From positions 44,171,184 through 44,235,183 of the forward strand of contig CM055095.1 of the NCBI GenBank assembly GCA_029204225.1: 64,000 bases of DNA. Reading direction: 5' to 3'. The position numbers and the translations under genes are program-made. The stretch's first letter is position 1. Every line of letters begins with the position of its first letter. Source of the stretch: Diphasiastrum complanatum. Taxonomy: Eukaryota; Streptophyta; Lycopodiopsida; Lycopodiales; Lycopodiaceae. The notes beneath the pieces were generated by a model, which was given only the letters and a program-made list of their open reading frames with translations, was not told the origin of the DNA and did not search any database. This document shows, piece after piece, positions 22,222-25,735 of this stretch.

Positions 22222-22725
22222 ATGAAAATATTTTTTAATCTCCATGGTCTTGAATTTTTTGCTAACTCGAAAACTTTTTCAAAAGAACCTAAACTTGACA
22301 GGTCTTCGCCTTTTAGTACGTCGAAACATTGCCTTATCTCATTAGAAGACCGTTCGCAAGAAGAAGTGGAGACTGTTACTCATAAATATTACTTGCCTCC
22401 TCCTGCTGAAGTCTCTCCCTTTAAACCTAGTGAGGCTCATTTTACTAACCCCCTTATGCCTTATCGTATGTTTGAAGATCTCTTAAGGGTTGTTGATAAT
22501 AAAGCGTGGCTGTTTGGTAATTTTGCTATGATGGCTCCTATTTTTGCTGATATGTGGATAATTCTTGGGGACCTGGAGGTTGAACCAAAAAAGATTAAGG
22601 AGTTACATAGAAAAATGACAATAGATGAATATTACTTAATTGATAGACATCTTTGCTTACCTGCCATGTTCAGTATGGATCAATTTGAACCATCAATATG
22701 CCCCTCGCCGCATGGAATTTTCTGA
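22222..22725 (+). pseudogene. N-terminal region of the PLE-like protein, unknown domain
   Basis: A 167-codon frame (MKIFFNLHGLEFFANSK...) contains YYLPPPAEVSPFKPSEAHF, FGNFAMMAPIFADMWIIL and MTIDEYYLIDRHLCLPAMF. I recognise no domain. It lies about 1 kb before the RT in the same orientation and is probably the element's own N-terminus, since PLE proteins have long poorly conserved N-termini. It could instead be an unrelated fragment. Confidence 0.4.
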
Positions 22726-23787
22726 AGAGTAAAAATGTGTAAGGTAAAAATGCTGAAAAAACTAAAAATTACCTTGATGAGGCTTGGCAATCTGGTTCAT
22801 TCTCAACAATCTTGATCTTTTCATGCCTGGGGATAGTCTAAAAATTAAACTGTATACTTTCCTGATGTGGCTATCCTCATAAGCAAAATTAATTGTGAGA
22901 GCCTCTTTGATATTTATTTACTTTAGAGAGTTTGTTATTGATGCTGTGAAATGCCTTTCGAAGAATCCTAATGATTGTTTGTTTCCTTCCTTGAGCCAAA
23001 AAGGTATAGCATTTATTGAAAAAGCCTTAAAACCTGGTACATTCTCTTCTAACAATAATGAGACTCCACCTAAAAGGTTAAAGACTCCTTCCTTTCGCGG
23101 GTGGTCACTTTTTTTCACGTGGAAGAACCTCTAGAACCTTCATTGGGCGACAACAGAAACAAATGTCTCTTCCCTTGCTGAAACCTTTCTCCCCATCTAT
23201 CACCTGCATTACTACACCCAAAAGCTCTAACAGTTAATCCAGCAGAGGAAGAGGAAGGTTTAATGTTGCTTACTTCTCTATACAAAATTTCTTTCATAAT
23301 ATGCTAGACTTATGTATGATCGAGGTCAAAGAAGATGTATGGAATGCTGTTAGATTTGGTTGGAAATTCACTTCTAATTTATGTTCTACCCTCTACAAAC
23401 TCGTGGACACTTTCTATAATCTCAGGGTTGAGGACATTCCTACATGTATCTATAGTAATAGTAGAAGACTTAGCCCGTTCCCACACAAAACATGGGGCCA
23501 CGTCATTTCTACAACTCAGACTTGGTAATTGATTCTTGGTTGCATGTTGAACTTAAGAAAGGCCTAATTCACATTCATGTTCATAACTCTAATATAACTT
23601 AAGCTTACGAAGTAATTAAGATGTTTGGCTGAAACTTGCTGACATTCTTGAGTTTTATGAAAAGGTTGAGGCCTATGCTGATTTTTTTAAAGAAAATATC
23701 CTTTATAGACTTTCTATTCATAATTCTGGAAAGCATAATCTGGTATGCAAGGATGACATTGCCTTAGGAAGGGAAATTAGATGGCTT

Positions 23788-24945
23788 TTGTCACACTTTT
23801 ACATTTGTGGTTTAGACAAAGCGCCAAATAGCCCTGTATTTTTATGTAAACGTTTGATGAGACTAGAGGCCTTAAAAAGACTGGAAAGTAAAGATTTTAT
23901 AGAGATTGATACACATTTTCATGACGTGATTAAAGAGATACACGAACAGATTTTTGTCTTTTTTCCATCTCTTGTGGTCCAACATATGTCACTTCCATTT
24001 CTGATGGGGATCTACAAGGCACATAAAGACACATTCAGATGGCTAAGCAACGCACATGCTTGTATTTTTACAGAATGCGCACTTATGGTGACCTATATTC
24101 TTTCTTCATGTATTGAGCCCCTACAACTCTTTTGCAAAAATAAACAACTTGAATTTTTTCTTCGTAGCGGTGCAAAGCCATCAGTTTTCTAGATTACAGA
24201 TGTATATGATTTTTCCATTAACTTACCAGAGGACCTATTCAGTGTCTTTTCAGCTGACATCACCAGGTGTTATGAGTCTATTCCTATCTTAGGGTCAAAT
24301 GGGTTACAAGACGTACTAAAAAAGTGATTAAAATTTCATTTAATCAGTTTGGGCTTACTTTTATCAGCTTTAAAAACTTCCCTTGTACACCAAAAAAAAA
24401 GAATCTGGTCTAAGTCTAGATATCTTAATAGTTTCTCCTTTAGTGTTGATGAGCTTATTTCCCTAAAGGACTGGCTGTCGCGAAGTATGCATGTTAGTTT
24501 AGCTAACAAAGTGTGGAGGCAGGTTTGTGGTATTCCAATGGGGTTCTCTTGTTCCCCTATTTGGTGCAATCTATACCTTTTTTTCTTTGAACTCGATTTT
24601 TGCACTAGACTGGCAAAATTGAATAGATGGGATATACTTGATAATTTCATATATCTCTTTAGATACATTGACAATATTTGTCTGATTAATGCACCTGATC
24701 CCCTTCTTTTTGTTGATACCAACGCTATAACCTCGTCTGATAACCCATTTTGGATCTACCCCATGCAATTTGTGGAAATTAAAGCTGAAATTTGCTGCTT
24801 TGCAAATTGCCATAATGGGATAGTATGTGGAACGAGGACTACTTTTTTTGACATGGAAATTATTGTGTCATCGGTCAAGTTTGCATCATTCTTTGTCACT
24901 AAATTTGATAAACGAATATCTCTCCCATTCGTCTTACGCATATAA
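23788..24945 (+). pseudogene. PLE-type reverse transcriptase core
   Basis: One reading frame runs about 385 codons with only two stops (near 24190 and 24325). It covers the RT fingers and palm: YKAHKDTFRWLSNAHACIFT, SADITRCYESI, GIPMGFSCSPIWCNLYLFFF, RYIDNICLIN and the EIK-like IKAEICCFANC. The palm motif usually ends YIDD; here it is YIDN, a loss of one of the two paired catalytic Asp residues. After ISLPF the frame shifts, and the thumb (YLSHSSYAYKVILSQIFPLL) continues in another frame. The family call rests on motif pattern, not on an alignment. Confidence 0.65.
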
Positions 24946-25169
24946 AGTCATTTTATCACAAATATTTCCTTTACTTTACATTTGTGATAATCCAAAGGAT
25001 GCTATGTAGCAAATGAAAATAGTGGTCGATACCTTTGTTAAAAATGGGTTTGATGAAAAAAGACTTCTATCATTGACTGGAAACTTTCTGGAGGGCTGCT
25101 TCCTTGGAGCCAGATGTTGTCCTTTAACAACTCGCTTCTTATTATGTAAGTTCGCCATGTGTTTTAGGT

Positions 25170-25220
25170 GTGCGACAGGTATAACCCCACTAGGTATACC
25201 TGTCGCACTACCTAGTGTGG
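25170..25220 (+). other. Paired alternative hairpins in the 3' part of the PLE-like element
   Basis: GTGCGACAGGTATA (25170-25183) and TATACCTGTCGCAC (25195-25208) form a perfect 14-bp stem with an 11-nt loop. The loop and right arm include CCACTAGGT (25187-25195), which can instead pair with ACCTAGTG(T)GG (25210-25220). The two stems overlap and exclude each other. It lies about 50 bp past the last RT-like residues. Confidence 0.7.
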
Positions 25221-25532
25221 TTGTCCTTCTTCGGGTGTTTGTTGGTGTATTGCTGCATATCTTGTTTCTTGTTGGTCTTTTTGTGGGTTGCCTTTATGTT
25301 GTTGGTTCCCTGATGACCTTTTTTTCGTGGCCTGTGTTTTTTAATTCTCTTCCTCTGGTTGTTTCTTTTGCTTTGTGATGGTACTTGGCTGACCTCTTGG
25401 TTCGGTTCGTTTGTTGTGGGCTTCGGGACGTTCGGGCCTTGGTGTTTTCTCCGTCATGGGACATGGTGCTCGTTACGATATTTCTTTTTGGCCTCTTAGT
25501 TTGTCTTGGTTGTACTTTTTGCCCCCTTTGTT

Positions 25533-25628
25533 TCTCTCTCTCTCTCTCTCTCTCTCTCTCTCTCTCTCTCTCTCTCTCTCTCTCTCTCTCTCTCTCTCTC
25601 TCTCTCTCTCTCTCTCTCTCTCTCTCTC
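25533..25628. repeat. (CT)n microsatellite, about 96 bp
   Basis: Uninterrupted TC dinucleotides at the 3' end of the PLE-like element. Open frames through it encode only Ser-Leu repeats. Confidence 0.95.
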
Positions 25629-25735
25629 GTGCTTTTGCTGTTCCTGGCTTCTGCTATGAGCCTTGCTTTTTCACGTGCTTTTGCCTGGTGTGTCGGCTGG
25701 ATGGAGGCGCTTTTATGGTGGTTGGTGGGCGCTTA

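Follow-up and report, generated by a model that had tools for sequence, protein, structure and literature searches.

A family of Penelope-like elements without recognisable GIY-YIG endonuclease in the clubmoss Diphasiastrum complanatum, and an old copy of it

The copy in the window

The window, as we call the whole stretch analysed here, comprises 64,000 nucleotides of the genome of the clubmoss Diphasiastrum complanatum (assembly GCA_029204225.1, contig CM055095.1, positions 44,171,184 to 44,235,183 of the forward strand; C4:44171184-44235183 in our contig numbering), and from about 22180 to 25735 it holds the remains of a Penelope-like element (PLE) with a reverse transcriptase (RT) gene. 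An earlier note, written from the letters of the DNA alone, had called such an element in a plant genome, and the plant call fits. We consider it likely that the window locus represents an old and no longer active copy of a PLE family, one that falls, by its RT and its CxC linker, in the Naiad/Chlamys lineage, carries no recognisable GIY-YIG endonuclease and is repeat-primed at microsatellites.

The RT motifs that had been reported are present in the translation of the forward strand, with ADITRCYESI (including the reported RCYESI) at 24253-24282, CGIPMGFSCSPIWCNLYLFFFE at 24526-24591 and FRYIDN at 24658-24675, in which YIDN begins at 24664. On the thumb side VILSQIFPLLYIC follows at 24947-24985 on the same strand, in a frame that differs from that of the palm. 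Frame 1 extends over 23620-24945 (442 codons) and is interrupted by two stops, at 24190-24192 and 24325-24327. In this frame Pfam gave a weak RVT_1 match below the cut-off (E 0.0054), NCBIfam gave TIGR04416 at E 0.011 together with an unrelated match to NifW, and a search of PDB with the window RT returned nothing convincing. The genome (1,744,706,496 bases in 5,176 contigs) was searched with the 205-residue palm frame of the window, and the best 150 of 2,799 candidates were scored. Since there are at least 150 scored relatives, all with E<=4e-29, the RT frame is not a product of chance.

Protein homology to one of these relatives, L062, is recognisable by tblastn across 22180-25231 of the window, with gaps, and delimits the parts of the copy, all on the forward strand. 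N-terminal domain A is partly kept at 22180..22569 (residues 33-162 of that domain in L062, 71%, E 1e-60), where the ratio of nonsynonymous to synonymous change (Ka/Ks) relative to L062 is 0.11 at Ks 1.8. N-terminal domain B is represented by its first part at 22573..22767 (residues 2-66, 66%) and its last part at 22787..23020 (residues 101-178, 74%), residues 67-100, which in the paralogues hold the C-x-C-G..C..WFDH stretch, not being found by tblastn. The segment 22222-22725, which the earlier note could match to nothing, is therefore part of an N-terminal domain conserved in the family; it has no useful Pfam or PDB match. After 23021-23273, which is without a tblastn match to L062, the region before and across the CxC linker follows at 23274..23510 (residues 132-210 of L062 open reading frame (ORF) C, 52%), with a remnant of the CxC at 23445..23453 that reads C-I-Y where L062 has C-T-C, aligned with CSC in L007, the outside relative described below. 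The fingers and palm of the RT occupy 23623..24930 (residues 249-683 of ORF C, 59%, E 3e-166), and the thumb and C-terminal tail, in a frame unlike that of the palm, 24938..25231 (ORF D, 68%, E 8e-38).

The earlier note had also pointed to YIDN in place of YIDD. The residues are as reported, but the four paralogues aligned at this site read YIDD or YVDD, and YIDN looks private to the window copy, a product of decay rather than a trait of a group. In comparison with the relatives used, synonymous sites are near saturation (proportion of synonymous differences, pS, 0.68-0.84 in 8 rows), so that the copy is old. With its two stops, frame change, lost pieces and YIDN, the window locus is to all appearance an old, inactive and broken copy.

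The family and the affinity of its RT

The 12 nearest relatives are 64-72% identical to the window palm and most others among the best 150 are 41-61% identical, and a search with domain B of L062 gave E<=1.5e-23 for all of the best 150 of 2,344 candidates; these family counts include duplicates of chromosomal copies on unplaced contigs. Long open frames survive in several copies (698 residues in L062), and from them, by eye and with tblastn, we assembled the layout of a protein of about 1,200 residues with an orphan N-terminal region, the CxC linker, the RT and the thumb. It starts near 'WHSDL..LGY..PL..PSP' and continues with domains A and B (B with KCxCG..C..WFDHxIW), an Arg/Gly-rich linker and a stretch of about 110 residues before the CxC linker, RT and thumb. 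The linker has the consensus 'LTCTC...F....W.HV.S...I...WL.NELKKGLNHIP' and reads CTC in L062, L084, L088 and L097 and CIC in L065 and L080. Relative to L062, at unsaturated Ks, Ka/Ks is 0.06-0.19 in domains A/B and 0.18-0.36 in the RT (8 rows each, the RT rows L041 and L082 being one copy), and we hold the protein to be under purifying selection in the family. Between the youngest copies (L065, L079, L080; L064-L097) the ratio is 0.41-0.60 in the RT and 0.30-0.47 in the N-terminal region, a rise that is expected after insertion. The family is, on this evidence, a large, old and diverse one in its host.

Relatives outside this genome were sought by motif scans of contigs. A first scan found none; a second, with a motif that we take to be typical of Naiads, brought up 20 stretches, of which L007, L009 and L017 are PLE pieces, 16 were read as chance and L005 is unclear. 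Scans of viral contigs, phages and PDB gave nothing useful, L001-L003 being chance pattern matches. L007 is a 5.9 kb contig of a planctomycete metagenome-assembled genome (MAG), presumably a eukaryotic contamination of it, with a GIY-YIG domain, a CxC linker and a PLE RT in that order; Naiad/Chlamys is presumably the right name for the lineage of this type. L009 and L017, from mussel-symbiont assemblies, are pieces of RTs like that of L007. All three PLE pieces, presumably eukaryotic, sit in bacterial MAGs or symbiont assemblies.

In BLASTP comparisons L007 matched five family members in both directions with E-values of 5.8e-9 to 9.6e-23, the fingers and palm of the window giving 6e-9 and 2e-10, one per direction (for the window alone, an earlier comparison had given 7e-07 and 0.016 with the palm), and L009 matched L066 (1e-11), L064 (6e-8) and, weakly, L065 (0.1). 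Eight Ty3-type RTs (L024-L031) and two maturases (L099, L100) from the same genome gave E>0.2 or no match; these Ty3/gypsy RTs and maturases were the outgroups compared. TERT was also located. With MAFFT the CxC linker and the RT align with L007 with moderate gaps (the CxC of L062 and L088 with its CSC), and in L064, L065 and L066 the thumb does so too; the fingers, the region of the insertion-in-fingers domain (IFD), align through with L007, in a sequence alignment only. We regard the Penelope-like nature of the family's RT as real and, since this RT matches L007 and not the Ty3 RTs or maturases, placement by RT and CxC linker in the Naiad/Chlamys lineage, that with the N-terminal endonuclease, is supported on the basis of the similarity to L007. 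The call of a Penelope-like RT is thus borne out and narrowed to one lineage. As Craig et al. are said to have reported in 2021, Naiad/Chlamys elements have an N-terminal GIY-YIG, the CxC, an IFD, a bias towards microsatellites and no hammerhead.

The 3' RNA, the element ends and microsatellites

At the end of the ORF, directly before a G-rich motif, the family carries an a-b-a'-b' structure, which in the window lies at 25170..25221 on the forward strand (a at 25170-25182 with a' at 25196-25208; b at 25184-25195 with b' at 25210-25221). In an alignment of 19 copies 92.7% of the cells pair, as against 18-49% for slid structures, a control that weighs more than shuffling since related sequences can exceed such shuffles. 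In helix a/a' 6/13 pairs have changed on both sides; the covariation score is 0.193 against 0.127 (standard deviation 0.010) after shuffling, and 22 cells show a double change against 8.4, neither value being reached in 500 shuffles. The alignment leaves out L034, which nearly duplicates L033; L040; L051 and L060, both with deletions in the structure; L058 and L097, whose ends were not found; and L063, L064 and L066, which differ in sequence, the last three having the a-b-a'-b' order by eye only and L064 being without b'. Fold z-scores are -6.6 for the window and -2.9 to -8.4 for seven copies, five of which fold a/a' and two b/b'. With a quick pseudoknot scorer, 16/22 rows of the window's group and 2/13 others scored above every one of 20 shuffles, some rows being the same locus. 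A true H-type pseudoknot is weakened as a candidate, helices of 12-13 bp with loops of 0-1 nt being unable to coexist, and for the same reason two alternative hairpins fit better. The two-hairpin RNA is, as judged from these alignments, conserved, with covariation in one helix (a/a'). A check for hammerheads, proposed in the earlier note, was negative, with none at E<=5 in 19-28 kb of the window and none at E<=0.5 in 8 loci, and no Rfam family, hammerhead included, reached the cut-off in our search.

In the relatives the unit consists of a leader, the ORF, the two-hairpin RNA, the G-rich motif, (CA)n or (CT)n and a second, partial leader. Some leaders contain tandem repeats; repeats of about 318 bases were seen in those of L079 and L080, and the copy on C22 has them both before and after its ORF. 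Pseudo-long terminal repeats (pseudo-LTRs), for which the earlier note had also proposed a check, were found in three relatives, on C19, C22 and C10 (L082). The C19 copy has (CA)48 on the left, then the leader 'TTTACAATTTC...', and to the right its ORF and RNA structure are followed by 'GGTTGGTAGG', (CA)17 and a 1.3 kb leader 94% identical to the first. In the C22 copy the two leaders are 93% identical over 3.2 kb. This element is bordered by (CA)10 on the left, and on the right its second leader stops at the internal (AC)8, which merges into (AC)24 before other DNA begins; the right end of the C10 copy is like it, with 'GGTTTAAAAACACAC' running into (AC)n. (CA)n therefore flanks both ends of the C22 copy and one end of each of the C19 and C10 copies. 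In the two copies measured, about 110-130 bases separate the internal AC tract from the first conserved coding stretch downstream of it. The tract is present in L065, L080, L081 and L082, which represent two subfamilies; the parts of L062, L063, L064 and L096 that were read showed none.

A dinucleotide array of at least 6 units stands at the G-rich motif, or at most about 30 bases after it, in 23/28 distinct copies, against about 2.5% of random 330-base segments drawn from the 64-kb window only (nearer 2.7% after allowing for about 6% skipped draws that had counted as misses). In this count L080 and L048 are one locus, the window array lies elsewhere, six same or near-identical rows were dropped, and L033 and L034, 98% alike over their whole length, may be one event. 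The exceptions are L043 and L060, with interrupted arrays, and L064, L097 and the window, with none at the standard place. (CT)n follows the same 'GGTTGGTGGG' in the distant subfamilies L063 and L066, and L059, of the window's group, also has (CT)n. Splice-like sites were noticed in the leader and 3' part of relatives; a splice-acceptor-like TTTTTCAG stands before the first conserved coding stretch of L062, with similar sites after (CA)n in the leader. Retention of introns is possible in PLEs (PMC3846280; this and the other papers given by PMC number are cited from partial text). L062 itself seems to start inside a copia-like RT frame, at about 1262 to 1300 of the reverse strand.

Behind the hairpins of the window copy, the 3' segment 25227..25401 (+) matches one other genomic place, C11:54381191-54381366, at 85%; there a leader-like stretch containing a short (CA)n comes first, and an RT was not seen. 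A perfect (TC)48 array at 25533..25628 (+) is off the family's standard position. The likely right-hand junction is 25735..25736, another repeat beginning at 25736 (25736-25861, 98% identical to 33731-33606, an inverted pair of 126 bases). The simplest reading is that this 3' part is the downstream partial leader, which has lost its (CA)n, and that the insert ends at 25735/25736; pseudo-LTRs were not seen in the window copy. Two copies of a copia RNase H-like piece, 75% identical, flank the insert at 20124-20656 and 27288-27821. Further long perfect (GA)n/(CT)n arrays occur in the window at 2490-2536, 29029-29147 and 61152-61278; their flanks were read and showed no PLE 3' end that we noticed.

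Integration and its rival explanations

In the Poseidon PAc element of Anolis, the RT has been shown to start inside the RNA, at an AC-rich stem loop near the junction of pseudo-LTR and ORF (PMC11167929). The AC-tract ends of two copies suggest a similar internal start in the clubmoss family, the tract here matching the target repeat. Furthermore, scored matches are not enriched near contig ends, with 2/102 within 1 Mb of an end and 3.2 expected, counting the 102 of the best 150 that lie on contigs of known size (sizes seen among C1-C23 run from 101.6 Mb for C1 to 42.5 Mb for C23, and C24 has at least 1.3 Mb). We therefore propose repeat-primed integration at (CA)n. The transcript would span one unit and part of the next, and its AC tract would anneal to (TG)n where a microsatellite has been opened. 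Starting from this paired tract, the RT would copy back across the (CA)n, then the hairpins and then the ORF. Sealing of the product within the same repeat would leave pseudo-LTRs, and the RNA handle for the RT may be formed by the 3' hairpins. For the opening of the target, existing ends (host breaks or nicks) would be the first choice, and an unrecognised N-terminal nuclease the alternative.

Such a nuclease is the substance of the rival that survives best, by which the family keeps its endonuclease in the orphan N-terminal region, as a nuclease of unrecognised type or a GIY-YIG that has diverged very far, and nicks (CA)n with it. In its favour, the subfamilies examined have this region, it is under purifying selection, it stands ahead of the CxC linker, where L007 has its endonuclease, and the junctions are located at microsatellites. 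Against this, the single Pfam match in 12 N-terminal rows, which represent 10 loci, was to DUF6708 (E 0.0081, one row) and none was to GIY-YIG, PDB matches had E>=1.1, and a profile comparison of the region with GIY-YIG gave a probability of 0.2%. A hidden Markov model (HMM) of GIY-YIG that includes the L007 domain was run on the six frames of 15 pieces, of which 12 were copies and 3 flanks, and gave no match at E<10; its positive controls were themselves members of the model. Among 9 RT rows Pfam gave one GIY-YIG match, whose E-value is that of L007, and one Bac_RepA_C (E 0.0025), and neither Pfam nor the HMM matched a C-terminal GIY-YIG in the tail frames. The earlier note was right that none lies downstream; in the Naiad/Chlamys lineage it would be expected upstream, and none was found there either. 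The family thus appears to be without recognisable GIY-YIG endonuclease in or beside the copies examined, and we think it unlikely that it keeps one in disguise.

For PF01541 the genome yielded 471 candidates; those read among the best 150, which were scored, belong to another repeated family. Among the 150 x 150 scored matches listed, no GIY-YIG and RT lie within 10 kb of each other (0.26 pairs expected by chance), and the idea that the genome's GIY-YIG copies are part of the PLE is unsupported, the nearest pair among the matches listed being 15.7 kb apart. Among these 471 candidates we noticed a small gene that has been amplified and whose GIY-YIG is clear (ITLYKIxSRVGKxxYIGQTT..., L067-L078); many copies stand on the first 3.2 Mb of C8 (C8:638799-3163635) and others elsewhere, unlinked to the PLE RT among the matches listed.

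By a second rival, the family would belong to the endonuclease-less, EN(-), PLEs of Athena/Coprina type, which lost the enzyme long ago and use chromosome ends. No endonuclease has been recognised in the family, and EN(-) PLEs are recorded for Selaginella and conifers (PMC9033089). Enrichment near contig ends is absent among the 102 matches counted, however, and the CxC linker and the similarity to L007 point to Naiad/Chlamys and not to Athena/Coprina, which makes this explanation quite improbable. That a Ty3, LINE or organellar-intron RT fragment has been misread as a PLE is hardly credible: RVT_1 is the only RT family with a Pfam match and TIGR04416 came up at E 0.011, but the genome's own Ty3-type RTs and maturases gave E>0.2 or none against 6e-9 to 1e-22 for L007.

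Several observations weigh against our preferred reading of a Naiad/Chlamys-type family repeat-primed at microsatellites. As to placement, L007 is the sole near-complete outside PLE compared, was found through a motif taken to be typical of Naiads, and has a GIY-YIG that stays below the Pfam cut-off (E 0.0078); the window thumb alone has no BLASTP match to it (best E 0.45), nor does L009 match L062 or the window. As to the ends, the right pseudo-LTR of the C19 copy does not end in an AC tract, the left end of L062 has no microsatellite and was read as lying inside a copia RT frame, and in the window copy (CA)n is missing behind the hairpins, with (TC)48 standing about 300 bases further on. In the RNA, helix b/b' shows a double change in 0/12 pairs across the 19 copies, neither the pairs with a double change (6 against 4.5, 74/500 shuffles) nor the pair types (15 against 14.5, 255/500) stand out, and the two helices, with loops of 0-1 nt, cannot both form fully. 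A very diverged endonuclease may also exist, the scored lists holding the best 150 of 471 GIY-YIG and the best 150 of 2,799 RT candidates.

The likeness to Naiad/Chlamys, by way of L007 and L009, lies in the RT, the CxC linker, the pseudo-LTRs, the microsatellite arrays and junctions, and the lack of a hammerhead in our searches. The clubmoss family differs in having no recognisable GIY-YIG and orphan domains before the linker, and adds AC-tract 3' junctions (two copies) and a conserved two-hairpin RNA. With Poseidon PAc it shares tandem units with pseudo-LTRs and, as proposed from the two 3' ends, the internal start at an AC tract, whereas PAc has a C-terminal GIY-YIG, a hammerhead and AT-rich targets and the AC tract here is the target repeat (PMC11167929). 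EN(-) Athena elements, which carry repeats at the RNA 3' end beside a hammerhead and sit at telomeres, likewise have no endonuclease (none recognised, in our case) (PMC12477314); the copies here are not enriched near contig ends, their repeat is (CA)n or (CT)n and no hammerhead was found. Dryad of conifers is also a PLE of vascular plants, but an EN(+) one of the Penelope/Poseidon type that is thought to be horizontally acquired (PMC9033089), whereas the present family, old and diverse in its host, matches another RT lineage. The connection with conifers mentioned in the earlier note finds no support here. Chlamys PLEs have been reported in Ectocarpus (PMC12477816). In the open-access literature searched, and in partial texts from it (PMC9033089, PMC12477816, PMC11167929, PMC3846280, PMC12477314, PMC9370799), with subscription papers and Craig et al. 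2021 outside this scope, PLEs are on record for conifers, Selaginella and Ectocarpus, and we came across no clubmoss PLE family of such make-up.

A bolder extension, which we offer tentatively and with some doubt, is that a whole PLE lineage has lost its GIY-YIG, gained the orphan N-terminal module and integrates inside chromosomes by AC-tract/(TG)n pairing, in a telomerase-like manner and with a switch-like two-hairpin handle. PLEs and telomerase RTs have a common ancestor. To our knowledge, EN(-) PLEs are associated with telomeres and EN(+) PLEs occupy the interior of chromosomes; a large interior PLE family without endonuclease would break this rule. If the orphan module cuts the repeat, it would be a new nuclease family. 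The two 3' ends in an AC tract are independent genomic support, though few, for the internal-initiation model of PAc (PMC11167929). Such a family would offer a natural system for testing if pairing between repeats is enough to direct integration, and for learning how microsatellites turn into landing sites.

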